Shown here: positions 1,217-29,032 of the stretch, piece after piece
Numbering within the stretch: the first letter of the stretch is position 1
Layout of the letters: every line of letters starts with the position of its first letter
DNA from: Gammaproteobacteria bacterium
GTDB taxonomy: Bacteria; Pseudomonadota; Gammaproteobacteria; SZUA-229
Direction of reading: 5' to 3'
Length of the DNA: 64,000 nt
Assembly (NCBI GenBank): GCA_026195895.1
Contig: JAPHRO010000052.1
Span: 62,001-126,000 of the forward strand
Program-made: the position numbers and the translations under genes
The notes under the pieces: generated by a model
Told to the model about the DNA's origin: nothing
The model's database searches: none
What the model saw: the letters and a program-made list of their open reading frames with translations, nothing else

Positions 1217-1285
1217 TAAGGGAATATGTATTCTAAATATTATGAATGCATACCAAATGAAGATAAGTCTGGGATAATACTAAAA

Positions 1286-12722: not shown

Positions 12723-13346
12723 GTGATTAGAGCATTTCTTGGTCTTAGCTTTGGCTTTTTACTAAGCGCCTGTTCAAATCAGAGCACTATTGCTCCTACA
12801 GATATGGGCGATACAGACCAAAGTTTTTCGATGACGGTATCAGAGTACCTAATAGGCGTCGATGACCAGCTTGAGGTCAATGTTTGGCGAAATCCTGAAC
12901 TGTCGGTTGCTATGCCTGTCAGGCCTGATGGGAAGATTTCTGTCCCCCTTATAGGTGACATTCAGGCAGGCGGTCGTACCCCAGTAGCGGTAGCCAACGA
13001 AATCCAGAAGGAATTATCGATCTATGTTCGAAATCCTAATGTCACCGTAATCCTTACTGAGCTACGAAATTTCGAGTACATATCGAGAATCCGGGTTACG
13101 GGCGCCGTGCAGACGCCAACTTCTTTCTCGTACCGTCAGGGAATGACGGTGCTGGATGCTGTCCTTGAAGCCGGGGGAGTAACTGAATTTGCCGCACCTA
13201 ATCGTGCCAAACTGTATCGGCAGGGTAAAAAAGAAACCGAGGTATATGACATACAGCTAGGGGGTATATTGAATCAAGGTGAACTATCCACAAATTTCCG
13301 ACTTAAACCTGGCGATATAATTACAGTGCCTGAGCGTTTCTTCTAA
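12723..13346 (+). CDS. XrtA-type polysaccharide export lipoprotein (Wza/EpsE-like)
   Basis: The 207-residue protein starts at a GTG preceded by GGAG with 7-nt spacing. A short signal peptide ends in the lipobox LLSAC (Cys17), so it should be an outer-membrane lipoprotein. The Poly_export domain begins at YLIGVDDQLEVNVWRNPELS with the conserved VRPDGKISVPLIGDI, followed by an SLBB-like region (RVTGAVQTPTSF...MTVLDAVLEAGG). Without a long C-terminal helix it resembles the short export proteins of exosortase-associated loci. It opens an operon that runs to about 24.5 kb. Confidence 0.9.
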   Translation: MIRAFLGLSFGFLLSACSNQSTIAPTDMGDTDQSFSMTVSEYLIGVDDQLEVNVWRNPELSVAMPVRPDGKISVPLIGDIQAGGRTPVAVANEIQKELSIYVRNPNVTVILTELRNFEYISRIRVTGAVQTPTSFSYRQGMTVLDAVLEAGGVTEFAAPNRAKLYRQGKKETEVYDIQLGGILNQGELSTNFRLKPGDIITVPERFF

Positions 13347-13368
13347 TTTCCACCTTAAAGGCAGATAC

Positions 13369-14910
13369 ATGGAGTCAAAATCTAAGTTCAATTTAGAACT
13401 GTTCTTACAGGAACTCATATTCCATAGGAACTTTATCGTCATTGTTTTTGCGATATTGACAGCAACAATAATTCTTATTGGTTCAAATTGGCCAAAACAG
13501 TATTCATCATCAACTTCGATTTTTGTTGAAGAAGAAAACATACTGGGCCCATTAATGCAAGGAGCAGCTGTTCAAACAGAAGTAATAGATAGGGCTGCTA
13601 TTGCTCGTGAGATCATATTTGGACACAATATAATGTTCCAGCTTCTGGAACAGGAGGGTTTAATAGAAGAGAACCCTGACCCTGCTATTCAGGAAAGATT
13701 AATGAATAATATCAAGGATCGACTAGATATTTCTAATGTTCGAAATAATCTCATCCGAATCAATTTTAAAGATAATGAGGCGGAACGAGCCTTTCGAATT
13801 ACAAGAACCATAGCCGAGTTATTTATTGAGGAGAGCCTCGCTGATAAAGCACACCAAAGTACTGAAGCATTTCAGTTTATCGATAAGCAAGCTCGTGAAT
13901 ATAAGGAAAAGCTGCAGAATGCAGAAGAAGAGCTTAAAAAGTTTCGGTCTGAGAACGTAGATGCTCAACCAGGCATGGCAGGAAGTATTGCGCAAAGAAG
14001 ATCTCAACTTCAGATCCGTAAAGAACAAATTAGCCAGGAACTCAAAGAAGCGAGAATACGAAAGTCATCACTTGAACAACAATTGTCCGGGGAAGCCCAA
14101 GCATCGTCAGCGTTTTCACGATCAGAACAAAATAAAGCGCGGATCGCTGAATTACAGGCACAGCTTGATACCTTACGCCTAAGCTACCACGAAACCTATC
14201 CTGATATTTTCCATATTAAGACACAGATACAGGATTTGCGTAATTCTATAAAGCAGTCAGAAAAAATGGCTGCGGAATCAGGTGCTGATTCTAACAATGC
14301 TATTATTGATGAACGTGTATTGAATAATCCTGTTTATCAGCAACTTCAACGTGAACTGTACGACACAAATACCAATATTGAGACGCTAAACGCGCGCTTG
14401 GAGCACACAAACACAGCTATTCAAGAACAGCTTGAAAGGGCTCGTAAAGTAGAAGAGTTCGAAGCCCGTCTTCAAGAGCTAACTCGAGATTATGAAGTAA
14501 ATAATGAAAGCTATACAGATTTAATGAGGCGCCGCGAACAGGCCCGAGTATCCATGAATCTTGACATAGAAAGGAAAGGTTTATCATTACGTATCGATGA
14601 ACCAGCAAATCTTCCCCATAGCCCAAGTGGTATTAGATTTCTACATTTCCTATTGGGCGGGCCTATAGTAGGTTTATTAGTTCCACTCAGTATTGTCTTT
14701 CTGTTGGTACAACTAAATTTTCGTATAAAATCAGGATCACAGATATATGATAATTTGGGAATACCCGTATTGGGTGCTACGCCGCATTTGTTGACGCGTT
14801 CGGAATCGCGTAAAGAGTTACTCGGTATAGTTGCTATCTCACTTCTCTTTTTGGGTACCCTTGCATTTATTATTACAATGGGCATGCTTCGCATGCAAGG
14901 TAAGGTCTAA
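13369..14910 (+). CDS. XrtA-associated polysaccharide chain-length determinant (Wzz-like)
   Basis: This 513-residue protein has a first membrane segment at about residues 20-43, a Wzz domain after it, a long periplasmic coiled-coil region (about 160-400, rich in Glu, Gln and Arg) and C-terminal membrane segments at about 423-446 and 480-502. This is the layout of the large polysaccharide co-polymerases of exosortase-A loci. It should set chain length and contact the cytoplasmic ATPase encoded 2 nt downstream. Its length is typical of the EpsF-like group. Confidence 0.88.
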   Translation: MESKSKFNLELFLQELIFHRNFIVIVFAILTATIILIGSNWPKQYSSSTSIFVEEENILGPLMQGAAVQTEVIDRAAIAREIIFGHNIMFQLLEQEGLIEENPDPAIQERLMNNIKDRLDISNVRNNLIRINFKDNEAERAFRITRTIAELFIEESLADKAHQSTEAFQFIDKQAREYKEKLQNAEEELKKFRSENVDAQPGMAGSIAQRRSQLQIRKEQISQELKEARIRKSSLEQQLSGEAQASSAFSRSEQNKARIAELQAQLDTLRLSYHETYPDIFHIKTQIQDLRNSIKQSEKMAAESGADSNNAIIDERVLNNPVYQQLQRELYDTNTNIETLNARLEHTNTAIQEQLERARKVEEFEARLQELTRDYEVNNESYTDLMRRREQARVSMNLDIERKGLSLRIDEPANLPHSPSGIRFLHFLLGGPIVGLLVPLSIVFLLVQLNFRIKSGSQIYDNLGIPVLGATPHLLTRSESRKELLGIVAISLLFLGTLAFIITMGMLRMQGKV

Positions 14911-14912
14911 TT

Positions 14913-15761
14913 ATGAGCAAAATACAGGAAGCCCTTGATAAAATAAAAGCATCTAAAAATGCAGAAGAATTCGACCTTTCAAAACAAACTGGTTTGCCTC
15001 AAGAAAGAATAGGTTCAAAAGCTGATATCAAGTTATCTGAAACAGCAGTGTTCAATCAAATTACTCATATGTATCAGCCTGAAGAGCTGTCACCTGATGA
15101 AAAAGATCGATTAAAAATAATTAGTACCTCAATGAATGATCGCAAGATATTCAATGCATTCAGAGACTTAAGAACGACGATCAGCCAACGCATCGAGGAA
15201 AAAGCCAGTCCCGTTATAATGGTGACGTCCTGCACAAGTCAAGGAGGTAGCAGTTTTGTAGCTCAAAACCTCGCCGTTGCTGTGGCGATGGATGAATCCA
15301 AAACATCGCTGCTTGTTGACTGTAACCTAAATGCTCCCAAATTCTCTGAGCTTATAATCTCAGAAAATATAGTCGGTTTAAAAGACTATCTAAAAGAAGA
15401 AAATCGCTCTGTTGATGAGATCATTCATCCTACTGGAATTCCTAGATTACGCGTAATACCCGCCGGGGTGCTTGATATTCCAATGACCGAATATTTTACA
15501 AATATAAGATTGCGAAAATTATTCGAAGATATTCGTGAACGCTATTCTCATCGCTATATCATCGTAGATGCCCCACCTATTGAAGAAAATGCAGATACTA
15601 GAATACTGGCCCAAATTTGTGATTATGCAATTCTCGTCGTGCCTTACTCCAAGGTGACGGAGAAACAGGTGCTAACTAGTGCGCGAGCAATCGGCAAAGA
15701 AAAACTACTAGGTACAGTTTTTAATAACCAACCCAGAACTCCCAAATTATCCTGGCGTTAA
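14913..15761 (+). CDS. BY-kinase-like ATPase of the XrtA locus with degenerate P-loop
   Basis: The 282-residue protein has the MinD/CpsD-like fold of bacterial tyrosine kinases and starts with the characteristic MSKIQEALDKIKAS. The P-loop region reads VTSCTSQGGSSFVAQNLA (about residues 105-122), so the usual GK(S/T) lysine is replaced by serine. The Walker A' aspartate remains in LLVDCN, and the Walker B-like VDAPP is intact. The C-terminus (QPRTPKLSWR) has no tyrosine cluster. By position and fold it is the partner of the chain-length protein. The missing lysine and tyrosines suggest a regulatory pseudokinase or an unusual ATPase. Confidence 0.83.
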   Translation: MSKIQEALDKIKASKNAEEFDLSKQTGLPQERIGSKADIKLSETAVFNQITHMYQPEELSPDEKDRLKIISTSMNDRKIFNAFRDLRTTISQRIEEKASPVIMVTSCTSQGGSSFVAQNLAVAVAMDESKTSLLVDCNLNAPKFSELIISENIVGLKDYLKEENRSVDEIIHPTGIPRLRVIPAGVLDIPMTEYFTNIRLRKLFEDIRERYSHRYIIVDAPPIEENADTRILAQICDYAILVVPYSKVTEKQVLTSARAIGKEKLLGTVFNNQPRTPKLSWR

Positions 15762-15785
15762 TGAATGTATTAGATACATATTCAA

Positions 15786-17093
15786 ATGACTACGTTAGCA
15801 AATTATTTTCTGAATCGCTCAGGCTGGGTAATACTGTTTATAGGATTTATGGTGAGTAATAGCTGTTTAGGTGCGCGAATGGATTCATCTTATGGTCTTG
15901 AAACTGAATATACGGATAATGCCTCACTGCTGTCTTCTGATGAAGAAGAAGATACCAGGATGTCTGCACTCGCTGGATTTTCATATCTTGAAAATACTTC
16001 CAAGCTACGAGCAGATATTAGTACATTGCTAGAATACAATGATTATTATCATGACACTTTTACGGACGAGGCGTGGGCTTATCTTAGTGCTGATGTAACC
16101 TGGACAATCAGACCTTCCAGTTTTTTCTGGAGACTGGAAGATTATTTTTCGCAAACAAAACGAGATGTGCTAGAGTCGGAAAATCCCGATAATCTCATTA
16201 ACACGAACGCTTTCTCAACAGGTCCTGATCTGTTATTTCGCCTTGCGCCAGCTAATCATTTATCTGTAGGTTCCCGCTTCTCTGAGTATCGTTTTGAAGA
16301 GACAGCTTCAGACAGTCAAAGAGAGTCTGTAAATACGGCCTGGCTATATGAATTCTCATCAACAACAGAACTGTCAATAAACTTCGAATACCAAAATGCT
16401 GAGTTCGACGAAGATGTAAATTTAAATTTTCACCGCCAGGACCTGTTTTTTCGATTTAACACACAATACTCCAGATCGCATTTTCAATTGGATCTTGGAC
16501 GATCATATATTGACCGGGATGCATATGACAATGTTAATGGTTTTCTAGCTCGTTTATTGTGGCTAAACCAGTTTCGCCAGCAATCCTTCTTTCAATTGAA
16601 TATAGTTGCGCAATACACCGATAGTGCGCTTGATTTATTAAATGTAGGTATATCAGGTCAGGAACTCGATTTGGTCGGGCAACAAATTAGTGATGACATT
16701 TTCTATGATCAACGAGTTGAAGCAACATATAGTTTTGGTTCCGGAGGATCTACATACTCTATACAGGCCCAATACAGAGATGAAGACTATGAAATTGCCT
16801 CCCTGGATAGACGAAGCTATGCACTGGGATTAAATCATAGCTATAATTATTCGTTAAATCTTACTTTTACAACAGATATTTGGTATCGCAAAACAGACAT
16901 TATAGATCTTGACCAAATTGACAAACAAATTACTGGTGGGCTATCTGCCACTTATCGTTTAAACCGTGATTACACCCTGCAGTTTGCATATAATCGTAAT
17001 AGCCAGAACAGTAATATATCGACTTCAGAATTTGATGAGAATCGACTTCTCATCAGTTTCTATTATGGTAGATACCCAGGATCATATAGGTAG
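15786..17093 (+). CDS. XrtA-associated outer-membrane beta-barrel protein
   Basis: The 435-residue protein has an N-terminal signal segment ending near NSCLGA. Alternating polar and aromatic beta-strands run throughout, e.g. ELSINFEYQNAEFDED and YTLQFAYNRNSQNS. It ends RLLISFYYGRYPGSYR rather than in an aromatic residue. This pattern, and its place between the BY-kinase-like and ExeA-like genes, match the TIGR03016-type outer-membrane proteins of PEP-CTERM loci. Its molecular role is unproven; export or anchoring of the polymer at the outer membrane is the usual proposal. Confidence 0.8.
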   Translation: MTTLANYFLNRSGWVILFIGFMVSNSCLGARMDSSYGLETEYTDNASLLSSDEEEDTRMSALAGFSYLENTSKLRADISTLLEYNDYYHDTFTDEAWAYLSADVTWTIRPSSFFWRLEDYFSQTKRDVLESENPDNLINTNAFSTGPDLLFRLAPANHLSVGSRFSEYRFEETASDSQRESVNTAWLYEFSSTTELSINFEYQNAEFDEDVNLNFHRQDLFFRFNTQYSRSHFQLDLGRSYIDRDAYDNVNGFLARLLWLNQFRQQSFFQLNIVAQYTDSALDLLNVGISGQELDLVGQQISDDIFYDQRVEATYSFGSGGSTYSIQAQYRDEDYEIASLDRRSYALGLNHSYNYSLNLTFTTDIWYRKTDIIDLDQIDKQITGGLSATYRLNRDYTLQFAYNRNSQNSNISTSEFDENRLLISFYYGRYPGSYR

Positions 17094-17101
17094 GAATCGA
17101 C

Positions 17102-18235
17102 ATGTATTATGAAACATTTGGACTGACGGAACCCCCTTTTCAGTTAACACCAGATTCGCGCTACCTGTTTTTGAGTAAGGTGCATAAGCGAGCTAAAGCC
17201 TACATGGATTATGCTGTATGGAAAAGAGATGGTTTTATTGTATTGACGGGTGAGATAGGTGCTGGAAAAACCACATTAATCAACAAACTTCTATCAGAAA
17301 TTGGTGAAGATGTAGAAATTGTTCGGATCTTCCAAACACAGCTAAACGAAATTGAGTTTCTTCAGGCAATGTTATTCGAACTTGGCGTTAGTAATTCAGA
17401 AATACATGGTCAGGGCAAAGTTGAACTTCTACATAGACTCAATCATTTTCTTATCGATACATATTCCAAGGGTCGACATGTTGTTTTGATCGTCGATGAA
17501 GGGCAGAATCTATCAACTAAAGTACTCGAAGAAATTCGCATGCTATCCGGACTTGAATTGGACAAAGAAAAATTGCTCAATATTATTCTGGTAGGGCAAC
17601 CAGAAATGAATCATATTCTTGACCAACCTAATATGGCACAACTTGTACAGCGCATTCGCCTAAGATTCCACCTGGGCCCCTTAAAAGCTGAAGAAACCAT
17701 TGAATTTATCAAGCATCGCCTAAAGATAGCCGGCGCTAAAAAACCTGAAAAAATATTTAAAGAAGATACATTTACCACAATTCAGGAAGCGACTGGAGGA
17801 ATTCCTAGAAAACTAAACGTTCTATGCGATACGGCACTAGTTTGTGCCTTTGCAGATAATAAAACTACTGTTGATATGGAGGCCATACAAGATGCCTTGT
17901 CAGAATTACAATGGGATAAATATGGAGATGCAAAAAAAGACAAAGCCTACATAGAACATCAGATAGCGCCTAGTCAGGCCTATGTACAGAAAATACCTCT
18001 GACTTCTAGCCAGAACGGTTCAGGAGTTCAGTTTACGGCCGATAACCAACAATGGAAAGATATGTTTTCTTCCATGCTCAAGATTATGGGTGATGTTACA
18101 AATCGCATGCATGCAATAGATAAAAAACTAGAAAAAATGGAAGATAAACTGGAGCAAATAAAAGAATCAAACCCAACTAACAAAATTGCTCAACTATCTG
18201 CTAAACGTAATAAAAATCGTCAGGGCGATTCTTAA
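17102..18235 (+). CDS. XrtA-associated ExeA-like AAA ATPase
   Basis: The 377-residue protein begins MYYETFGLTEPPFQLTPD, the hallmark of ExeA/GspA-type ATPases. Walker A is GEIGAGKT (residues 50-57), Walker B is in VVLIVDEGQNL, and an arginine-rich RIRLRFHLGPL follows. The last 90 residues contain a charged coiled coil (KKLEKMEDKLEQIKES). It corresponds to the TIGR03015-type ATPase found in most exosortase-A EPS operons. It probably energises assembly or gating of the export apparatus. Its stop overlaps the next start by one base (TAATG). Confidence 0.87.
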   Translation: MYYETFGLTEPPFQLTPDSRYLFLSKVHKRAKAYMDYAVWKRDGFIVLTGEIGAGKTTLINKLLSEIGEDVEIVRIFQTQLNEIEFLQAMLFELGVSNSEIHGQGKVELLHRLNHFLIDTYSKGRHVVLIVDEGQNLSTKVLEEIRMLSGLELDKEKLLNIILVGQPEMNHILDQPNMAQLVQRIRLRFHLGPLKAEETIEFIKHRLKIAGAKKPEKIFKEDTFTTIQEATGGIPRKLNVLCDTALVCAFADNKTTVDMEAIQDALSELQWDKYGDAKKDKAYIEHQIAPSQAYVQKIPLTSSQNGSGVQFTADNQQWKDMFSSMLKIMGDVTNRMHAIDKKLEKMEDKLEQIKESNPTNKIAQLSAKRNKNRQGDS

Positions 18236-19119
18236 TGAACAATGCTCTAACAGTAGATGTAGAAGATTATTTTCATGTTGCAGCCTTCGCTGATAATATT
18301 TCGCCATCTACATGGGATAAGTATCAACTACGTGTTGAAAATAATACTACTCGATTATTGGATTTATTTGATCAGTTTGATACCAAGGTCACTTTCTTTA
18401 CACTTGGTTGGGTTGCAGAGAGAAAACCAGAGCTGGTGATAGAAATTGCCCGCCGAGGACATGAAGTAGCCTGCCATGGATACAGCCACCAATTAATATA
18501 CAAACAAGATCAACAAATATTTTATGATGAAACAAAGCGCGCTAAGGACATCCTGGAAGACATTACAAATTCTAAAATTCAGGGGTACAGAGCAGCAAGT
18601 TATTCCATAACCAAACAATCATTATGGGCACTAGATGTTCTTTGTGATCTTGGCTTTGTGTATGATTCCAGCATCGTGCCGGTACATCATGATCTGTATG
18701 GAATTCCAGATATGCCGCGTGCACCTCATATTCTTACTGCACCAAATGGTAAAGAACTGATTGAATTTCCACCATCTACATTATCTTTACCTGGCATGAA
18801 TCTACCAGTAGCCGGTGGCGGTTACTTTAGATTGTATCCCTATTGGTTTAGCAAGGCCGCACTGAAATGGATCAATCATAGAGACAATATGCCCTTCATT
18901 TTCTATTTGCACCCTTGGGAAGTGGACCCAGGTCAGCCCCGTATGCAGGGAAAATGGTTTTCTCGATTTCGTCATTATAATAATCTATCTAAATGCTATA
19001 GTCGGCTTGAGAAGCTTTTACAAGATTTCAATTTCACAACAGCAAGAAACGTCTTGGTTGACCAGAAACTTATCGGGACAATACATGCTGGCCATGACCC
19101 TGCAATGGCGACTTCCTGA
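18235..19119 (+). CDS. XrtA-associated polysaccharide deacetylase (NodB-like)
   Basis: The 294-residue protein begins NALTVDVEDYFHV, the first metal-binding motif of the exosortase-A-associated deacetylase group. TFFTLGWVAE and HEVACHGYSHQ (the HxxxH zinc motif) follow. RAASYSI and FYLHPWEVDP supply the later active-site motifs. It should remove N-acetyl groups from the polymer or its precursor. There is no signal peptide, so it acts either in the cytoplasm or by an unusual route. It is coupled to the upstream ATPase gene. Confidence 0.88.
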   Translation: MNNALTVDVEDYFHVAAFADNISPSTWDKYQLRVENNTTRLLDLFDQFDTKVTFFTLGWVAERKPELVIEIARRGHEVACHGYSHQLIYKQDQQIFYDETKRAKDILEDITNSKIQGYRAASYSITKQSLWALDVLCDLGFVYDSSIVPVHHDLYGIPDMPRAPHILTAPNGKELIEFPPSTLSLPGMNLPVAGGGYFRLYPYWFSKAALKWINHRDNMPFIFYLHPWEVDPGQPRMQGKWFSRFRHYNNLSKCYSRLEKLLQDFNFTTARNVLVDQKLIGTIHAGHDPAMATS

Positions 19120-19147
19120 GTTCAGAAAAATACTGGAATAAAAAGCG

Positions 19148-21145
19148 ATGTGCGGAATTGCAGGAATAATTAATTTAACTAAACAGGTGAAGATCGATCA
19201 GGATTTGCTGCTCGCTATGGTGCATCAATTGCATCATCGAGGCCCTGACGGCCACGGCTGCATAATAGACAACTATGTAGGTTTGGGACATGCTCGATTA
19301 AGCATCATTGATCTGGAAGGCGGTCAGCAACCCATCCATAACGAAGATAAATCTATCTGGGTTGTGTTTAATGGCGAGATATTTAATTTCATTGAGTTAA
19401 CTCAGGAACTTAAAAAAGCCGGTCATGAGTTTTATACACATTCTGACACCGAAGTTATTGTCCATTTATATGAACAATATGGCGATGATTTCGTCAATCA
19501 TCTTAACGGTCAGTTTGCTATTGCTTTATGGGATTCCAACCGTCAACGATTATTACTGGTCAGAGATCGACCCGGTATTCATCCACTGTTTTATTCAGTC
19601 GTAAACAATCAACTATATTTCGGTTCCGAAGTTAAGGCTATTTTACGCGGTACGGGTAAATCACCAACACTAAATAGGCTAGCGCTCGACGAACTGATGA
19701 CCTTCTGGTCACCTATTGCTCCGCATACAGTTTTTGATGGAGTTGAATCACTTGAACCAGGCAATTTGCTGGTAATAGAGCAGGGAAAAATAACGAAACG
19801 CGCATATTGGGAATGGAACTATCCCACTGATCATCAGTATCGGCAAGGCAGTGAAACAGATCTGGCTGATGAACTGCGATCCTTATTGGTTGATGCCACC
19901 CAGATTCGATTACGCTCCGATGTGCCAGTAGGTGCTTATCTTTCTGGTGGTCTGGATTCATCAGCTCTGGTATCCATGATTCATCATCATAGCGACGCTC
20001 CTTTGCGCACATTCTCTATCGCCTTCGAAGATGAAGGACTTGATGAGAGCCCTTATCAAAAACAGATGATTGAGCACGTCAAAACTGACCATAGCCGTAT
20101 TGTCTGTAAACGTACTGATATTGCCGAACAATTCGAAAAAACTATTTGGCATACGGAATCGCCTATACTGCGCACGGCGCCAGTACCTATGGGAATATTA
20201 TCCTCACTGGTGAGAGAACAGAATTACAAGGTTGTATTAACCGGTGAAGGCTCCGACGAGGTGCTTGGTGGTTATGATATTTTCAAAGAAACCAAAATCA
20301 GACAATTCTGGGCAAAAAATCCAGAATCGGTATTTCGCCCACTAATGTTGAAACGTTTATACCCTTATCTGGAAATGGGCCAGGGTAAAGCACAAATATT
20401 TTTCCAGAATTTCTTTGGCACAGCGCTTGATCAACCTGAAATCCCCTGGTTCTCACACTTACCGCGTTGGGATACTACTTCACGCTGTAAAGATTTTTTC
20501 TCTGCTGATATGAAAGCTCAAATGCTAAAGGACGTCATATCACGATTCGAACCGACACTTCCTTCTGCACTTAAACAATGGCATTATTTTAATCGCGCTC
20601 AATATATTGAGGCTAAATCACTGATGGCTGGATATTTATTATCATCCCAGGGAGACAGAATGCTAATGATGAATTCCGTTGAGGGACGTTTCCCGTTCCT
20701 TGATCATCGGGTTATCGAATTCGCCAACAGTCTGGATCCACGCCTAAAAATGAAAGTGTTAAACGAAAAACACCTACTCAAACAGGCGATGAAGAAATAT
20801 GTTCCAGACAGTATAATTAACCGCTATAAGCAACCTTACCGTGCACCTGACATACCGAGCTTTTTCACTTCCAGTCCTCCCGAATACATAGAGGAATTAC
20901 TCAGTGAATCGGCGATTAAATCTGCCGGGTATTTTGATGAAAAACGGGTAGGGTTGTTGATGAAAAAAATTAAACGTGGGCTAGCCATTGGCTATAAAGA
21001 TAATATGGCTTTTGTCGGTATCCTGTCAACGCAGCTCTGGCATCAACAATTTATTAAAGATTTTCATAAAAACATCACCCAGCGCGAAAATGAAATGAAT
21101 AAAATATCAAACCAAAATTCTATGGGGGCTATCCATGTCAGTTGA
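19148..21145 (+). CDS. XrtA-associated asparagine-synthase-like amidotransferase
   Basis: The 665-residue protein starts MCGIAGI, leaving Cys2 as the class II glutaminase nucleophile. LSIIDLEGGQQPI and the FNGEI block confirm the glutaminase domain. The synthetase half carries the PP-loop SGGLDSS at about residue 266 and LTGEGSDEVLGGYD. It should take ammonia from glutamine and form an amide on an adenylated carboxylate. In exosortase-A loci such proteins (TIGR03108 type) presumably amidate a sugar acid or build an acyl-amino group. Its end overlaps the ACP gene by 11 nt. Confidence 0.88.
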   Translation: MCGIAGIINLTKQVKIDQDLLLAMVHQLHHRGPDGHGCIIDNYVGLGHARLSIIDLEGGQQPIHNEDKSIWVVFNGEIFNFIELTQELKKAGHEFYTHSDTEVIVHLYEQYGDDFVNHLNGQFAIALWDSNRQRLLLVRDRPGIHPLFYSVVNNQLYFGSEVKAILRGTGKSPTLNRLALDELMTFWSPIAPHTVFDGVESLEPGNLLVIEQGKITKRAYWEWNYPTDHQYRQGSETDLADELRSLLVDATQIRLRSDVPVGAYLSGGLDSSALVSMIHHHSDAPLRTFSIAFEDEGLDESPYQKQMIEHVKTDHSRIVCKRTDIAEQFEKTIWHTESPILRTAPVPMGILSSLVREQNYKVVLTGEGSDEVLGGYDIFKETKIRQFWAKNPESVFRPLMLKRLYPYLEMGQGKAQIFFQNFFGTALDQPEIPWFSHLPRWDTTSRCKDFFSADMKAQMLKDVISRFEPTLPSALKQWHYFNRAQYIEAKSLMAGYLLSSQGDRMLMMNSVEGRFPFLDHRVIEFANSLDPRLKMKVLNEKHLLKQAMKKYVPDSIINRYKQPYRAPDIPSFFTSSPPEYIEELLSESAIKSAGYFDEKRVGLLMKKIKRGLAIGYKDNMAFVGILSTQLWHQQFIKDFHKNITQRENEMNKISNQNSMGAIHVS

Positions 21146-21386
21146 ACAACAAATTCGTGACTATATTCTAGAAAATTACTTATTCACGGATGATCAGTCT
21201 GCACTGATCAACGGTGATTCTTTCCTTGAAAAGGGCATACTGGATTCAACAGGAATACTGGAAGTCATTTACTTTATTGAAGATGAATTCGGCGTAAAAG
21301 TTGAAGATGAAGAAATGATCCCTGAGAACCTGGATTCGGTAGATAACATCGTTGCATTTATTGGTCGAAAAAACGCAGCTGCCTGA
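21135..21386 (+). CDS. Acyl carrier protein
   Basis: This acidic 83-residue protein has the phosphopantetheine attachment site in GILDSTGILEV, with Ser38 as the carrier residue. The helices after it (VIYFIEDEFGVKVEDEEM) are typical of PCP/ACP folds. It overlaps the amidotransferase gene and is 5 nt from the acyl-CoA/ACP ligase gene. The three products probably load an acyl or amino-acyl group and pass it to an acceptor in the glycan pathway. Confidence 0.9.
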   Translation: MSVEQQIRDYILENYLFTDDQSALINGDSFLEKGILDSTGILEVIYFIEDEFGVKVEDEEMIPENLDSVDNIVAFIGRKNAAA

Positions 21387-21391
21387 TCTAA

Positions 21392-22912
21392 ATGAAAAAT
21401 ACTCTTGTTCAACTACTTTATGACTCAGTGCAACGCGTCCCTGAAAAAGATGCTGTTGTACATGGAGAAAATCATCTGAGTTATCAAGCTTTGTGGGAAA
21501 AAGCCTGTGGTATTGCTCATTACCTAATAAATCATGGCTTGAAACCTGGTGACCGAGTTGCCTTACTCCTCGACAATTCACCCGAATATATTGCTGCATA
21601 CTACGGCGTTCTTATGACAAGTGGCGCTGTCATAGGATTGAATACCGCCGCTAAATCTCGCGATTTAGCTAACTGGATTGAACATAGTCAATCAGCTTTT
21701 GTTTTTGCTAATTCCAAACACCCTGAACTTAAGAAAGTTTTAAAGTTGATAAAACAACAAAACATAAATCTTTTGCTTATCGGATCAACAGAAATAGATC
21801 TTAAATCAGATAAATGGACTGATATAAAAGAACAGCCAACACTCCCTGATACAACAATGGAATTTGATCCGAAAAATCAACTAGCATCAATTATTTATAC
21901 CTCAGGCACTACCGGGCACCCCAAAGGAGTAATGCTGAGCCATTCTAATTTATACCATAATATTAAATCTATTCTGACCTACCTTGAGCTCAATGAAAAT
22001 GACAGCATAGTAAATGTGCTACCTTTTTATTATTCCTATGGCAACTCAGTTCTGCATATACACTTAGCCGTAGGCGCCACTCTGATTCTTGAGAATAGCA
22101 TGCTGTATCCTCAGAAAGTAGTTTCGCTAATGGCCGACAAAAAGGTTACTGGGTTTTCTGGCGTGCCTTCAACATTTAATCTGTTATTAAGCAGAACCAG
22201 GCTTGGTGGATTTGACCTATCTTCTATCCGTTATATGACTCAAGCGGGTGGGCCTATGGCGCCAGCGAATATTGAACGGCTTAAAAATGAACTTCCAAAT
22301 GTCCAATTTTATGTTATGTATGGCCAGACGGAAGCCAGTGCAAGGCTAAGTTATTTGCCACCGAACAAATTGACAACAAAACTTGGCTCAATAGGAATCG
22401 CCATACCTGGAGTCGAACTTGAGGTTATGGACTCTACACATAGTCCAGCCGATCCAAATGTTACTGGTGAAATATATGCCCGTGGAGAAAATATCATGCT
22501 TGGCTATTGGAAAGATCCCGAAGCCACACAACAGGTGATGCATAATAACTGGCTAAAGACCGGTGATTTAGCCTACAAAGATGAAGATAATTACCTGTAT
22601 ATAGTTGGACGCTCATCTGAGATGATAAAAAGTGGAGCCCATCGCATTAGTCCAAAAGATATTGAAGAAGTGATTCTTGAACTAGATGGAATAGAAGAAA
22701 CTGCTGTAGTAGGCATAACCGACGATTTGCTTGGTCAGGCAATTAAGGCTGTTATCGTCAAATCGCCCGAATCTAATTTAGACAAAATGCAAGTCATGCG
22801 TCATTGCAAGACTAACCTGGCTAATTACAAACTACCAAAACAAATTGAATTTACTGATGAAATTCCTCGAACCGCTTCAGGTAAAGTTCGTCGTTTCATG
22901 TTACAAGAATAA
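21392..22912 (+). CDS. AMP-forming acyl-CoA/acyl-ACP ligase, XrtA type
   Basis: The 506-residue ANL-superfamily enzyme has the AMP-binding loop IIYTSGTTGHPKGV (about residues 167-180), YMQTE-like VMYGQTEA, the LKTGDLAYKDED hinge region with the GRSSEMIKSGAHRIS core, and the C-terminal catalytic lysine in RTASGKVRR. It activates a carboxylic acid as acyl-AMP and passes it to a thiol. The adjacent ACP is the natural acceptor, though CoA is possible. Exosortase-A loci commonly encode such a ligase (TIGR03098 type). The substrate is unknown. Confidence 0.87.
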   Translation: MKNTLVQLLYDSVQRVPEKDAVVHGENHLSYQALWEKACGIAHYLINHGLKPGDRVALLLDNSPEYIAAYYGVLMTSGAVIGLNTAAKSRDLANWIEHSQSAFVFANSKHPELKKVLKLIKQQNINLLLIGSTEIDLKSDKWTDIKEQPTLPDTTMEFDPKNQLASIIYTSGTTGHPKGVMLSHSNLYHNIKSILTYLELNENDSIVNVLPFYYSYGNSVLHIHLAVGATLILENSMLYPQKVVSLMADKKVTGFSGVPSTFNLLLSRTRLGGFDLSSIRYMTQAGGPMAPANIERLKNELPNVQFYVMYGQTEASARLSYLPPNKLTTKLGSIGIAIPGVELEVMDSTHSPADPNVTGEIYARGENIMLGYWKDPEATQQVMHNNWLKTGDLAYKDEDNYLYIVGRSSEMIKSGAHRISPKDIEEVILELDGIEETAVVGITDDLLGQAIKAVIVKSPESNLDKMQVMRHCKTNLANYKLPKQIEFTDEIPRTASGKVRRFMLQE

Positions 22913-22925
22913 ACTGGAGAAAAGC

Positions 22926-23915
22926 ATGACATCACAAAAACTATCATCGCAAGTACTTGAAATGGATTTGGATGCAGAAGTTATTAAAATTTCACAACGT
23001 CTACGTGAAATATTAAGAAGTGATTTAAATCGACGTGGATTGGTAATCGCTATGTCGGGCGGCATTGATAGCTCGGTTAGTGCTGCCTTAGCCGTAAAAG
23101 CACTCGGTCCTAAAAAAGTTTTTGGCTTGCTATTACCAGAACAAGACTCCTCATCCAATAGTCTTAAACGAGGTAAACAACTAGCAGAGCATCTAGGCAT
23201 TGAATATTTAGTTCACGATATTGCACCGACACTTGACGCTATTGGTTGTTACCAGTGGCGCGACGAAGCAATAAAAGCTACTTTTCCTGAATATGGAGAG
23301 GGCTGGAAAAATAAAATTGTCATTACTGGCGGTATCGAAGGACAAATCAATCATTTCAAATTAGTCGTTCAGCCCCCTAATGGCGAAATTAAGGAAAAAA
23401 GATTAGGCCTTAAAGAATATCTTCAAATAGTCGCAGCAACAAATTATAAACAACGTATAAGAAAAACAGTTGAATACTTCCATGCGGATCGTTTGAATTA
23501 TGCTGTAGTTGGTACTCCAAACCGACTAGAATATGATCAGGGTTTTTTTGTGAAAAATGGTGATGGTTCTGCCGACGTGAAACCCATTAGTCATTTGTAT
23601 AAGTCTCAAGTCTATGCATTATCGAAACACCTAGGTTTACCCGATGATATTTGTAGCGCAATCCCTACTACCGATACATATAGCCTGCAACAGGGACAGG
23701 ATGAATTCTATTTTGCATTGCCTTATCAGCAAATGGATGTAGCTCTATGGGCACTTAACCATAAAATACCCGCCAGCGAACTTGCAGATTTTCTAGGAAG
23801 CACTGAAGAACAGGCACAGTGGGTTTATAATGACATTGAAGCAAAACGGAAAGCCACATACTATATGCATGCGGCACCAATATTGGTGGAGGCTGTGTCT
23901 GAGATAAAAATCTAA
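22926..23915 (+). CDS. NAD-synthase-like N-type PP-loop amide ligase
   Basis: From ATG 22926 (GGAG 7 nt upstream) the protein has 329 residues. It has the N-type pyrophosphatase loop VIAMSGGIDSSVSAALA and a NadE-like core with GTPNRLEYDQGFFVKNGDG and ADVKPISHLYKSQVYAL. It lacks the glutaminase domain of long NadE enzymes. A housekeeping NAD synthase is possible, but its place inside an EPS operon beside a glutamine amidotransferase, ACP and acyl ligase favours a specialised amide-forming role. An in-frame upstream extension exists but would overlap the ligase gene. Confidence 0.8.
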   Translation: MTSQKLSSQVLEMDLDAEVIKISQRLREILRSDLNRRGLVIAMSGGIDSSVSAALAVKALGPKKVFGLLLPEQDSSSNSLKRGKQLAEHLGIEYLVHDIAPTLDAIGCYQWRDEAIKATFPEYGEGWKNKIVITGGIEGQINHFKLVVQPPNGEIKEKRLGLKEYLQIVAATNYKQRIRKTVEYFHADRLNYAVVGTPNRLEYDQGFFVKNGDGSADVKPISHLYKSQVYALSKHLGLPDDICSAIPTTDTYSLQQGQDEFYFALPYQQMDVALWALNHKIPASELADFLGSTEEQAQWVYNDIEAKRKATYYMHAAPILVEAVSEIKI

Positions 23916-23930
23916 AGTTAACATACTTAA

Positions 23931-24497
23931 GTGCTAATAAAACAAATTCATCGTATTGGCTGGATAATTCGTTATCTTTTGGCTAGAGTTATTGCTAGGA
24001 AAATTAGCCGTGTTCGTTTAAAACGTATACGCCCAAAAAAATTACTGGTTATTTGCTATGGGAATATATATCGCAGTCCTTTTGTCGCCAAATATTTATC
24101 TGATCAACTCAGGTCAGATCCAACATATAAAATCAAATCAGCTGGATTTATACAAAAGAAAGAACGTAAATCGATGCCCGAATATGTAGAAATGGCAAAA
24201 AATTATGGCGTTGATTTATCAGAGCATTTATCTACTATTGTGAATCAGTCATTATTTGACTGGGCTGATGCAATTATCATTATGGATGGAAAGAATTATA
24301 AATTGTCTCTATTGCTGGATATATCAGTTAGCAATAAACTGATCTGGTTGGGTGCTTTAAGCGATGAGATATCGATAGAAATTCTGGATCCTTATTCTAG
24401 GAGCCATGAAGAGCAACAACAAATAATTTCCCAAATGCTAAGATCAAGTGATGCTCTTATACAAAACTTAAAATCAGAAAATTCTTTATCGAAATAG
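23931..24497 (+). CDS. Low-molecular-weight protein-tyrosine phosphatase (Wzb-like)
   Basis: The 188-residue product from a GTG start has the catalytic CX5R loop in VICYGNIYRSP (Cys42, Arg48) and the general-acid loop ILDPYSR near residue 154. These are the marks of LMW-PTPs such as Wzb, which dephosphorylate BY-kinases. A basic, partly hydrophobic N-terminal extension of about 35 residues precedes the domain and may contact the membrane. The gene closes the EPS operon. This is notable because the operon's kinase-like protein lacks an intact P-loop and tyrosine tail. Its 3' end overlaps the convergent ATP-grasp gene by 12 bp. Confidence 0.86.
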   Translation: MLIKQIHRIGWIIRYLLARVIARKISRVRLKRIRPKKLLVICYGNIYRSPFVAKYLSDQLRSDPTYKIKSAGFIQKKERKSMPEYVEMAKNYGVDLSEHLSTIVNQSLFDWADAIIIMDGKNYKLSLLLDISVSNKLIWLGALSDEISIEILDPYSRSHEEQQQIISQMLRSSDALIQNLKSENSLSK

Positions 24498-25679
24498 TTT
24501 TATTAACCATTGATATGATTCGTAGAGCCATGGTTTTAAATCGGATACACGTAATACTTCATAATGAAGATTTTTCTCCCATAATTTCAGAAACTTCAAA
24601 AAATATAGCAGTTTTGAATCTGCTCCTTCTGGAAGTTGCTGGCGTTTAGTGTCTTTTATAAGTCTTATTAATAACGCATCGACATCTCCCCAGAGCCATC
24701 TTGTTTTCACACCTATTTGATAATCTTTTATACTTTCAATGAAATCACGATCAAGGGTTCTTGCAAGAATCATCGGAAAATCCACACCGGAATCAATAGC
24801 AAGTTGCAAGGACCCCCAAAATCTACCATTTATTTCCATCAATTTAGGCCTGCCATCTTTTTCATCCATTTTATATTCCACCATGGCTACTCCCTGCCAC
24901 TGTAAAGAACTAAGTAACTTAGTAGAAAACTCATAGGCGCAGGGATCTAGTTCGACACTTTTACTTAACACACTAACGCCTCCGGAAGGAGGTTTCTCTC
25001 GTATTCTTTGGTGACTGAAGGCAGCTACTGGCTGGCCTTTATTAAAACACATGAAAATACCTAATCCTGGGCCAGTAATACGCTCTTGTAAGATAATTGG
25101 GAATATTTCATCTTGATAACATTGAAGTTGCTGGTGTAAATCACGTTCATCAGCAGCATAGGTTACCGAGGTCAAAATCCAACCAGAATCAGTTAAAATT
25201 CTTGACCGGGACGGCTTTATAACCAAGGGGTAGCCGAGGTCAATATTTCGAATGGTATCCAAGTCACCCACGCTATTGATGATAATAGATTTTGGAACAT
25301 CAAGCTGAAGTGATTTGGCTAAGTTTATAATGTCGGCTTTATTTGCAGCTTTATCTATAATTTCATAATCAGCACAGGGCACCTTACAATATTTTTCAAA
25401 TTCTGATTTTTCTCTGCTAATAGGGATTGTAGTGATGTCAGTAACCGGAAATATAGCATCGACATTATTTTCTTGTGTGAATTTCAATAGAAAATTTATA
25501 AATTCGTTTGGTTGTGAAATAGGGTCTGGGTAACAGCATTGACTAGAAGCATATTTAGAATATCCTGCCAAAGATCTGTTTTTATGGTGACCCACAACTA
25601 CTTTATGACCAGCTTTTCCAAGAGAACGGGTTATAGCTAATCCTGGGCGCGTATTCCCATCTGTTACAAGAACTTTCAT
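24486..25679 (-). CDS. ATP-grasp ligase (carboxylate-amine ligase type)
   Basis: The 397-residue protein begins MKVLVTDGNTRPGLAITRSL, a Rossmann-like preATP-grasp domain. The ATP-grasp core contains YPLVIKPSRSR and MVEYKMDEKDGRPKLMEINGRFWGS, with the metal-binding Glu and Asn. It should couple a carboxylate to an amine through an acyl phosphate. In polysaccharide loci such enzymes may attach amino acids to sugars or lipids. It ends a four-gene minus-strand operon (FemAB-like, DegT-like, deacetylase, ATP-grasp) with gaps of 2-9 nt. Confidence 0.85.
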   Translation of the reverse strand: MKVLVTDGNTRPGLAITRSLGKAGHKVVVGHHKNRSLAGYSKYASSQCCYPDPISQPNEFINFLLKFTQENNVDAIFPVTDITTIPISREKSEFEKYCKVPCADYEIIDKAANKADIINLAKSLQLDVPKSIIINSVGDLDTIRNIDLGYPLVIKPSRSRILTDSGWILTSVTYAADERDLHQQLQCYQDEIFPIILQERITGPGLGIFMCFNKGQPVAAFSHQRIREKPPSGGVSVLSKSVELDPCAYEFSTKLLSSLQWQGVAMVEYKMDEKDGRPKLMEINGRFWGSLQLAIDSGVDFPMILARTLDRDFIESIKDYQIGVKTRWLWGDVDALLIRLIKDTKRQQLPEGADSKLLYFLKFLKLWEKNLHYEVLRVSDLKPWLYESYQWLIKLFR

Positions 25680-25688
25680 CTATTTGTC

Positions 25689-26735
25689 TTAATAAATTCC
25701 GAGTAATATCATCATGAACATAGGTTTGTTTCGAGCCTTTGTCTCATGGATGTTTATTCTTTTAATATCGAATTGGTTGTCATTGACTGTAACATGGCCC
25801 GGATTTGTGCCAAATCCCATAACATAACCTACGTCCTTTGCAATATTATGTACCTCTAAGTTAGAGTTTCCGTTTGGATAGGCAATCGCTAATGGGGTGT
25901 CAGTATCTTTATTTATTGTGTTTAGTTTGTCGCGAGATTCTACAAGTTCCTTGCGAATTTCTTCCTTAGAAAGCCGGGTCAATATTTTATGTGAACACGC
26001 ATGAGAGCCAAATGAAATATTATGCTTTTTCATATCATCTATTTGCTGCAAATTTAAATATAAATCAATATCGTTTGGGGAATTATCTAAAGAGTCGACT
26101 GATATAATTTTGTTATATATCTGATTTACTTGAGTATAAGATTCAGACTTTAGTTTACTAACATAATTTATTATTATTTGGCGCTTTTCATGATTATCTT
26201 TTACTACACCTATGGATTTTAACTGGAGCTTAGAAAGTAAAGTCCTAGCCTCTTCAGTTTTTGTATTGCTGAGATTAAATATAGCGCGAGCCAATTTTTC
26301 CTGCCAGAAAAGCTCGTGGGTATCGATATAATCTGCTGGCAAAAATATTGTTGCTGGTAAATCGTGCTTTTTTATCACAGGCAAGGCGTAGATATAATTA
26401 TCAACCCATCCATCATCAAAGGTAATCAAACATTGGGTATTTTTATTAAAATTATTATTTACTAAATTACTATTAAATTGGTTTATATTTATAACATCGA
26501 AATACCTATTTAAATATTCTAGCTGGCGACTAAAAGTATTTGGCTGAACTATTATTGCATCATTAGAAAATGAAGTATTGATAAGCTCTTTTGGTAGTAT
26601 TCTATGATACATTAAAACGATTGTTTTATTATTAAATTTATATTTTTTTAATAGATGTAGAATACCACTATAAAAAAGTATGTAGGCAAATATATTTTTA
26701 ATGAAGTATTTAATTAGATTAATAATCCGTTTCAT
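25689..26735 (-). CDS. Polysaccharide deacetylase (NodB domain)
   Basis: The 348-residue protein has an N-terminal hydrophobic stretch and TIVLMYHRILP, followed by CLITFDDGWVDNY, the Asp-Asp motif of NodB deacetylases. SFGSHACSHKILTRLS carries the zinc-binding His pair, and IAYPNG comes later. It is the second deacetylase of the region besides the XrtA-type one. It is only 2 nt from the DegT-like gene and probably modifies the same glycan. The membrane-near N-terminus suggests an envelope location. Confidence 0.85.
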   Translation of the reverse strand: MKRIINLIKYFIKNIFAYILFYSGILHLLKKYKFNNKTIVLMYHRILPKELINTSFSNDAIIVQPNTFSRQLEYLNRYFDVININQFNSNLVNNNFNKNTQCLITFDDGWVDNYIYALPVIKKHDLPATIFLPADYIDTHELFWQEKLARAIFNLSNTKTEEARTLLSKLQLKSIGVVKDNHEKRQIIINYVSKLKSESYTQVNQIYNKIISVDSLDNSPNDIDLYLNLQQIDDMKKHNISFGSHACSHKILTRLSKEEIRKELVESRDKLNTINKDTDTPLAIAYPNGNSNLEVHNIAKDVGYVMGFGTNPGHVTVNDNQFDIKRINIHETKARNKPMFMMILLGIY

Positions 26736-26737
26736 TA

Positions 26738-27964
26738 CTAAGTCTTAGGATCAAAATTTTTATAAAATATTTCTTTAATTGTAGAAATATCATTATTATT
26801 CATATAGGACATTGTCGGTAAAGTTAAAATATGACGAGCTATGTATTTTCCTTGTATGCATTCCCCGCTATTTATGGCAGCATATTTTTTTACTTCGTCA
26901 AGATCTGCAATTGATTGTGGATAAGAAGTTGTGGCGCCGATACCCGCGCTATTTAATTCTCTTAATAATTTCTCTCTAATTATTGAACTATTAATCAGTA
27001 ATGGAATACGCAGCCACACTGGCGTAGAGTCTGGAAGAGGCTCTATGAATGTAACACCGCTTAGTGGAGAAAGTGCGTTAATAATCATCTCTGCATTTTC
27101 GCGTCTTTTACTCGTTATTAAATCTACTCTCTTGAAGGCCCTGTAAGCTATTGAAGCTAAATGTGAGCTGTATTGGCTGAATAGATAATTAGTTGTATAG
27201 ATAGTTTTACCAAGCCCTAATGAAGGGGTGTTTGCAGGTAACCAATAAAGCCGGGGATGTAGCAGTAGGCTATAAATTATAAGTTTAAGACCCTCAGCTA
27301 ATTTTTGTTTAAATCCCGGATAAGGTAATTCACTGATTTCAGAAGAAATTAATTCTGCAAGATAATCATTATTAGTAACTATGATTCCTCCCTGTATAGA
27401 AGTAATATTTTTCCCCTTATCAAGACTGAATAATCCGATATCCCCATATGTCCCGATATAGCGTTCGCCGAGTTTTGCATTCATTGACTGTGCGGCATCA
27501 TCAATTAGCGTTATTTTTTGCTGCCTGGCTAAGATTTCCAATGACTTAACATCATTGGGAATTCCGAATAAATTGGCAGTAGTAATGGCTAACACCTTAC
27601 TGTAATCAATATTTTTTAAATCATCAAAATTATAGTTAAGCGTCACAGGATCAATATCACATATCCTGACCTTCAATCCAGCTAATTCAGCTGCAGCAGG
27701 CACAGAATAACAAGTGTAAGAAGGTAAAATAATTTCACAACGATTTGCGTCTTCATTTTCGTCTTTCAATATTCTGAATAACATAGCCATCGCTGCCCGA
27801 CCGGACGACATAAAGAAACAATGTTTTACAGCGAATTTATTACATATTGCCTGTTGGAAACTATGAATTTTGCTTTTTCTGGTCATAATTTCGAGTGACC
27901 AAGCTAGGAGATCAGTTATTTTGATTGGTGTACCAGAGGGGGCTATATAGCGAAACTTAGGCAT
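26738..27964 (-). CDS. DegT/DnrJ/EryC1/StrS-family PLP aminotransferase
   Basis: The 408-residue protein shows the fold-type I layout: HCFFMSSGRAAMAMLF for phosphate binding, VLAITTANLFGIPNDV, the LIDDAAQSMNA aspartate that contacts the pyridine nitrogen, and SLDKGKNITSIQGG with the likely PLP lysine. DegT-family enzymes make amino sugars from keto sugars for polysaccharides. The spacing in the lysine motif differs from the common SFxxxKxxxxGEGG, so substrate choice may be unusual. It is in a tight operon with FemAB-like and ATP-grasp genes. Confidence 0.85.
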   Translation of the reverse strand: MPKFRYIAPSGTPIKITDLLAWSLEIMTRKSKIHSFQQAICNKFAVKHCFFMSSGRAAMAMLFRILKDENEDANRCEIILPSYTCYSVPAAAELAGLKVRICDIDPVTLNYNFDDLKNIDYSKVLAITTANLFGIPNDVKSLEILARQQKITLIDDAAQSMNAKLGERYIGTYGDIGLFSLDKGKNITSIQGGIIVTNNDYLAELISSEISELPYPGFKQKLAEGLKLIIYSLLLHPRLYWLPANTPSLGLGKTIYTTNYLFSQYSSHLASIAYRAFKRVDLITSKRRENAEMIINALSPLSGVTFIEPLPDSTPVWLRIPLLINSSIIREKLLRELNSAGIGATTSYPQSIADLDEVKKYAAINSGECIQGKYIARHILTLPTMSYMNNNDISTIKEIFYKNFDPKT

Positions 27965-27970
27965 AAAATA

Positions 27971-29032
27971 TCAAGGTATACTTTTAGCTAGGATAGGGCC
28001 TACTATAGTAGTAAAACGCAAAGGCATTTTGGTCCACATATTTATTGCTAACTGGTATTTTGGATTGTTAACATTTAACTGTGGAATATCGTGAGATTTA
28101 TTCAAAATATATTGCCAATGCAATTGTTTAGAATAGGCATTCCATTTTTTTTTAAATGCTTCGGCGCCACCTTCAGCACTTGAACGGCCAAGATGGTATT
28201 GTAAACAGCCATTTTCACAAGCATCTTTGATCATTTCCCAATATAGTGCGTAGTTAGGCTGTATTTTTCGATACTGTGGCAAGGCTCCCGCCCACATTCC
28301 TTCGACGGTATCTTTATAATAACCATTAAAGGCTGTTGCTATCGGTTTATCGTTTTGATATGCAACAAAAATTTTAACCTCATTAGGAAATGAATTGAGA
28401 ATGTCTAAAAAATATGACTTTTTATATATAGGAGTACCTAAATATTTCCAGCTTTCCGCCATCAAATTATAGAAAATATCGAGCAACTCGTGCGCTCCCT
28501 GTTTTACGTGAACTCCCTCTTTATAAACACGCCTGATATTTGTTCGGTGTTTCGATTTAAATGCCGCCCAGATTACATCTGGATCAGGGTCCAGATCCAG
28601 GCTCATACTGATTTTATTTAGGGATGTTGGCAGTGCTTCTGTTAATGGGTAAAGGGAGCGTATCTCAAGATAGTCTGCATCACATTTTTTGACCAAATCT
28701 TTTGCTTCATCAAGTATCAACTTGGAAATGTATTCAGAATTGGCACATAGGCCACCAAAGTTAACAAAAGGCATGGAAGATAAAATCTTTCCAAAAAGCC
28801 GACTTTTAACAAAAACAATGGGTAGCAACCCTACTAGTTGATTATCCTGTTCAGCTCCAATGTAATAGCAATCATGTTCAAAATTTCTTTCATTTATACC
28901 TTTCCAGCTATAACGCTGGTAAAAGTTACTTTGTGAATGCTTAATTAAATACTGATCCCAATTCAGTGCTTCATTTGCAGAGTAGCATCTAATCCTGGTC
29001 CTTTTGTTGATATCTGTTCCCATATATTGCAA
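27971..29032 (-). CDS. FemAB-like (GNAT-fold) peptidyl/acyl transferase of the XrtA type
   Basis: The 353-residue protein has a tandem-GNAT layout. SNFYQRYSWKGI opens the first domain, and GKILSSMPFVNFGGLCA is characteristic of exosortase-associated FemAB proteins (TIGR03019-like). The second domain has FKSKHRTNIRRVYKEGV and HLGRSSAEGGAEAFKKKW. FemAB proteins transfer amino-acyl groups from tRNA to peptidoglycan; the exosortase-associated ones probably act on another acceptor. It is first in the minus-strand operon, so it defines its promoter side. Confidence 0.83.
   Translation of the reverse strand: MQYMGTDINKRTRIRCYSANEALNWDQYLIKHSQSNFYQRYSWKGINERNFEHDCYYIGAEQDNQLVGLLPIVFVKSRLFGKILSSMPFVNFGGLCANSEYISKLILDEAKDLVKKCDADYLEIRSLYPLTEALPTSLNKISMSLDLDPDPDVIWAAFKSKHRTNIRRVYKEGVHVKQGAHELLDIFYNLMAESWKYLGTPIYKKSYFLDILNSFPNEVKIFVAYQNDKPIATAFNGYYKDTVEGMWAGALPQYRKIQPNYALYWEMIKDACENGCLQYHLGRSSAEGGAEAFKKKWNAYSKQLHWQYILNKSHDIPQLNVNNPKYQLAINMWTKMPLRFTTIVGPILAKSIP

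Follow-up and report, generated by a model that had tools for sequence, protein, structure and literature searches.

A conserved four-gene cassette in an exopolysaccharide operon combines a carrier protein and ligase with AsnB-type and NadE-like enzymes

The cassette and its operon

The window, a stretch of 64,000 nucleotides of gammaproteobacterial DNA, carries an XrtA-type exopolysaccharide (EPS) operon on the forward strand, spanning 12723-24497 with intergenic gaps of -11 to +28 bases (-1 to +28 in its upstream part). The EPS genes come first; four genes for an AsnB-type amidotransferase (AsnB), a carrier protein (ACP), an AMP-forming ligase (LIG) and a NadE-like protein follow, and a low-molecular-weight phosphatase gene comes last (Table 1). 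The AsnB and ACP genes overlap by 11 bases, and the gap from ACP to ligase is 5 bases. A sequence-only reading had placed a tightly coupled four-gene amide cassette inside an EPS operon at 19148-23915, and its positions, strand and families are all confirmed. In the profile search, TIGR03027, TIGR03007 and TIGR03006 score above their cut-offs in this operon; TIGR03018 and TIGR03015 match well but stay below theirs, and the TIGR03016 match is weak. Promoter and terminator scans at the operon ends gave only consensus noise.

The NadE-like reading frame, as called mechanically, opens at a TTG at 22845. Homologous proteins start at about residue 27-32 of this frame, and an ATG at 22926, 13 bases past the ligase stop, is preceded by GGAG; the true start is therefore placed at this ATG, giving a gene of 22926-23915.

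Table 1. Features of the window and of the stand-alone operon in Sinorhizobium meliloti
Feature	Position	Strand	Profile match or remark
Upstream operon part: XrtA-type EPS export protein, chain-length determinant, tyrosine kinase, outer-membrane protein, ATPase, polysaccharide deacetylase	12723..19119	+	TIGR03027, 03007, 03018, 03016, 03015, 03006
AsnB-type glutamine amidotransferase, 665 aa	19148..21145	+	TIGR01536 510.6 bits; PF00733, PF13537
ACP, 83 aa	21135..21386	+	Phosphopantetheine serine is residue 38, in DSTG
AMP-forming acyl/acid ligase, 506 aa, clade A	21392..22912	+	PF00501 277 bits
NadE-like N-type ATP pyrophosphatase, subfamily PRK00876, 329 aa	22926..23915	+	NF002048 494 bits
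Low-molecular-weight protein-tyrosine phosphatase (Wzb-like), final operon gene	23931..24497	+	PF01451 64 bits
FemAB-type XrtA-associated aminoacyl/acyltransferase	27971..29032	-	TIGR03019 312 bits, cut-off 260
Stand-alone cassette operon, S. meliloti 1021 pSymB 1450582-1455388	L180:6001-10807		Near minCDE in annotated strains

A convergent operon on the reverse strand (24486-29032) overlaps the cassette operon by 12 bases and encodes an ATP-grasp protein, a second deacetylase, a DegT-type aminotransferase and the XrtA FemAB protein. In two close relatives (L018, L123), the same deacetylase and ATP-grasp genes come after the cassette. Elsewhere in the window (1226-2839) lies a gene for a protein that looks secreted and has the C-terminus VPIPGSIWLFMSGLFGMIAVSRR, which is similar to a PEP-CTERM tail; the protein has no NCBIfam match. 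A phage origin was rejected, with 0 matches among 50,697 phage records.

Conservation and distribution

The NadE-like protein was used as a query against bacterial and archaeal genomes, yielding 80 loci, and whole-genome searches added more. The window proteins were mapped onto all loci found, and linkage was counted on the 61 loci flanked by 5 kb or more on each side. ACP and ligase genes lie within 8 kb of the NadE-like gene in 60 of these, and all four genes occur together in 54, AsnB being the least constant member; none of 15 control loci around the family's housekeeping NadE carries any of the three partners. The linkage is far beyond chance. Gene order varies, with at least four arrangements (AsnB-ACP-LIG-NadE, AsnB-LIG-ACP-NadE, NadE-AsnB-LIG-ACP and divergent forms), and a linkage that survives reshuffling of order and strand is the pattern expected from a shared pathway. 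The proposal of a four-gene cassette is thus borne out, and its members almost certainly constitute a real functional unit.

The cassette is patchily distributed: PRK00876 scores above cut-off in 6 of 54 genomes of the family and in 13 of 299 of the phylum. Most cassette loci come from Pseudomonadota; loci in Myxococcota, Chloroflexota and other groups are assigned by record titles only and come from metagenome-assembled genomes (MAGs), for which contamination is possible. The archaeal control genome of Methanosarcina acetivorans also has a PRK00876 match above cut-off. In another genome of the same family (G050), a NadE-like remnant with an internal stop (G050:C8:107991-108506; L012, L127) stands without AsnB, ACP or ligase, which indicates that the cassette can be lost.

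In Sinorhizobium meliloti and S. medicae, the four genes form an isolated operon on pSymB-type megaplasmids (Table 1), and the cassette frames of S. meliloti strain 1021 are full-length. Plasmid genes of S. meliloti include asnB, a presumed asparagine synthetase (PMC3082293), which may be the AsnB gene of the pSymB cassette.

The EPS operon around the cassette is of XrtA type, and the sequence-only reading regarded the amidotransferase and ligase as known XrtA companions. If these were ordinary XrtA/PEP-CTERM companions (TIGR03108, TIGR03098), the NadE-like gene would be a chance neighbour. The two systems are alike in having an AMP-ligase, an amidotransferase, often a nearby ACP-like ORF and an EPS setting. 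However, the window AsnB scores 442.7 against TIGR03108 (cut-off 816.9) and the window ligase 372.8 against TIGR03098 (cut-off 592.35), so that both fall below the family thresholds. The PRK00876 gene is absent from ten loci with true TIGR03098 ligases, and no sampled genome carries both families, although chance alone would predict little overlap. Exosortase was found in 2 of 13 cassette genomes, compared with 61 of 299 overall, and is thus not in excess. Membership in the XrtA companion families is ruled out by these cut-offs, loci and counts, and a tie of the cassette to XrtA proves too narrow in view of the missing exosortase excess and the stand-alone operon of S. meliloti. When tested, the reading of XrtA companions beside a chance NadE neighbour was not supported, and it is extremely improbable. 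The XrtA ligase/amidotransferase pair also differs from the cassette in its PLP decarboxylase partner (TIGR03099). The window genome itself has an exosortase A-like match (G000:C28:81286-82065, in a 532-aa frame), which at 184.6 bits stays short of the cut-off of 208 and lies on a contig other than that of the EPS operon.

Catalytic features of the four proteins

The NadE-like protein scores 494.3 bits against NF002048/PRK00876 (curated cut-off 313) and is a member of this subfamily. PRK00876 retains the ATP-site motifs SGGxDS and GTxxxE...GDG (as SGGIDSS and GTPNRxEYDQGFFVKNGDG). Its catalytic loop carries an invariant PTTDT in place of the P[ST]A..L found in the NAD synthases compared. An AlphaFold (AF2) model (mean pLDDT 87) predicts an NAD-synthetase fold with additions, namely a helix at 108-119 and three beta strands at 128-160; in the alignment, this segment (residues about 108-160) is mostly an insertion relative to canonical enzymes, and its helix is conserved. 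The best PDB matches are NAD synthetases, with the Francisella NMN synthetase 3fiu in the top three of one search and at rank 4 of another. The title of 3fiu as an NMN synthetase indicates that acceptor choice varies within the NadE fold. PRK00876 therefore shares fold and ATP-site motifs with NadE and 3fiu but differs from them in its extra helix, three beta strands, PTTDT loop, and ACP and ligase neighbours.

The NadE-like protein might be a genuine NAD or NMN synthase whose role is simply to raise cofactor supply, as its NCBIfam name, NAD(+) synthase, and its top PDB sequence matches (NAD synthetases and 3fiu) would suggest. The genome, however, encodes a separate NAD synthase of 546 aa with an N-terminal amidase-like part (G000:C34:117700). 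A separate NAD synthase is present in 18 of the 19 genomes checked (18 with an intact PRK00876 gene and 1 with a remnant), the exception being a 78% complete assembly. Together with the near-constant linkage of the NadE-like gene to ACP and ligase, the altered catalytic loop and the inserted beta sheet, this makes the cofactor reading improbable; there is some chance that the enzyme still uses NaAD or NaMN. The idea that it is the genome's sole NAD synthase is ruled out by the full-length 546-aa enzyme.

The window AsnB has glutaminase (Cys2) and synthetase (SGGLDSS) domains with both motifs intact, and exceeds the TIGR01536 cut-off of 267, which places it in the glutamine-hydrolysing asparagine synthase family; Cys2 is invariant in 70 of 70 proteins scored. 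The ACP has no Pfam match and falls below every curated carrier family, its best scores being 55.9 bits to NF052616 and 43.1 bits to NF058660. Its phosphopantetheine serine (Ser38, in the DSxG motif) is nonetheless invariant in 91 of 91 relatives. The sequence-only reading would have lost ground had the NadE-like protein been the only NAD synthase or the ACP not been modified by phosphopantetheine. As far as sequence goes, both points fall its way: the second NAD synthase that it asked about exists elsewhere in the genome, and the ACP serine is kept.

Cassette ligases form two clades (support 1.0) around one shared core, with the window ligase in clade A; one locus (L043) holds both. The catalytic lysine is kept in the window ligase; it is present in 53 of the 55 clade A ligases and in all 38 of clade B. 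The clades differ at the position corresponding to GrsA D235, as assigned through the A4 motif: clade A ligases have Ser, Ala, Thr or Cys in 55 of 55 cases and never Asp, while Asp occupies this position in 25 of 38 clade B ligases. The lack of Asp suggests that the clade A acid is probably not an alpha-amino acid. This bears on another explanation, in which free asparagine or glutamine is the product of AsnB and is charged onto ACP by the ligase, to be passed on to the amine of a sugar. AsnB is indeed nearest to true asparagine synthases, Asp at the alpha-amino-binding position is common in clade B, and FemAB and GNAT proteins are neighbours. But the residues of the window's own clade argue against amino acid loading, and the scheme leaves the NadE-like enzyme without a role; its probability is judged to be small.

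Among the 38 clade B loci, 21 have a PrmC/HemK-like methyltransferase with NPPY; none of the 55 clade A loci has one, an association counted without correction for shared ancestry. Known PrmC enzymes act on glutamine, methylating its amide nitrogen, and an amide product would fit with relatives that act on a carboxamide nitrogen. Examples within clade B cassettes are L061:9046-9942 and L068:4828-5880, with about 20 other loci.

A possible amidation pathway and its precedents

The cassette is proposed to work as a self-contained, interchangeable module, which builds a carboxamide-bearing acyl unit on a carrier and passes it to varying downstream pathways, here probably to an EPS amino sugar; this reading is given an even chance. 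The ligase would adenylate a carboxylic acid, probably other than an alpha-amino acid in the window's clade, and load it onto the Ser38-phosphopantetheine of ACP. AsnB would then hydrolyse glutamine and amidate a free carboxylate of the carrier-bound unit or of its precursor. The NadE-like enzyme might adenylate a carboxylate by NAD-synthase chemistry with a changed acceptor, forming a second amide bond or completing the first; the ACP-bound acid is its likeliest substrate, since ACP and ligase are the genes to which its own is most closely linked. Two amide-forming enzymes exceed the need of one carboxamide, and how AsnB and the NadE-like enzyme would divide the labour is a guess.

A neighbouring enzyme would finally take the product. 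In the window, a FemAB-type transferase may add it to an EPS amino group freed by the deacetylase; the FemAB protein of the convergent operon is, by proximity, the most likely candidate for transferring the carrier-bound acyl group. Elsewhere, a GNAT protein, a FabH/FabG/FabA-like set, an NRPS or a thioesterase may collect the product. GNAT proteins adjoin the cassette in 31 loci; NRPS modules lie near it in three loci (L022, L024, L087), and L117 has an adenylation-thioesterase protein. In L083 (2858-10981), genes for FabG-like, ACP, FabA-like, FabG-like and FabH-like proteins stand directly before AsnB, LIG, ACP and NadE, as if a short fatty-acid-like route had been attached to the cassette.

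Glycan genes are recognised in 32 of the 61 complete loci, a lower bound given the few probe families used, and none in the other 29. The suggestion that the cassette installs an acylamido or amidated group on a sugar thus holds as a possibility for loci like the window; sugar attachment applies at most to such loci.

The tasks may also be split, with AsnB amidating a uronic acid of the EPS repeat in the manner of WbpS, and the ligase, ACP and NadE-like protein making a separate acyl decoration. A PGN_1234 mutant lacks glucuronamide (PMC7468200), transposon insertions in Rubrivivax hit wbpS-type genes of the psc1 cluster, which is of XrtA type (PMC3684757), and AsnB is the member most often missing from the cassette. 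Yet AsnB is retained in loci where no glycan genes are recognised, and the stand-alone operon of S. meliloti would be an odd place for a uronic-acid role. The split is therefore rather unlikely, though less so than a role in cofactor supply or amino acid loading.

The preferred reading of a carrier-bound amide module extends, at somewhat less than an even chance, to the whole subfamily: PRK00876 proteins could be NadE-derived amide synthetases, annotated as NAD synthesis enzymes, that act on carrier-protein-bound acids and, with AsnB, ACP and a swappable ligase, form a general amidated-acyl-ACP factory that serves, across several lineages of bacteria, pathways of EPS, NRPS and fatty-acid-like type. 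If so, the label NAD synthase that the subfamily carries in many genomes is wrong, its true activity being amide formation in a carrier-protein pathway, and bacterial polysaccharides as well as small molecules would gain a chemical group through the cassette. The intact operon of S. meliloti makes the cassette testable in a model organism.

The components belong to known families, and their combination is apparently unstudied: the open-access literature searched, which left most subscription papers outside its scope, holds no description of the four-gene cassette or of a NadE-type enzyme recruited beside a carrier protein. By analogy, the nearest functional precedent is OxyD, which supplies the malonamate starter of oxytetracycline (PMC7749508). 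In OxyD/OxyP, likened here by function, an amidotransferase feeds an amidated acyl starter to a carrier protein, as proposed for the cassette; the pair differs in having no NadE-like enzyme and in its polyketide rather than EPS setting (PMC7749508). The nearest glycan precedent is WbpS/PGN_1234, which makes glucuronamide (PMC7468200). The Wbp/Vim pathway is likewise a glycan pathway in which a FemAB-like protein (VimA) partners an AsnB-type amidotransferase, but its amidotransferase acts on a uronic acid, and ACP, ligase and NadE-like enzyme are not reported there (PMC7468200).
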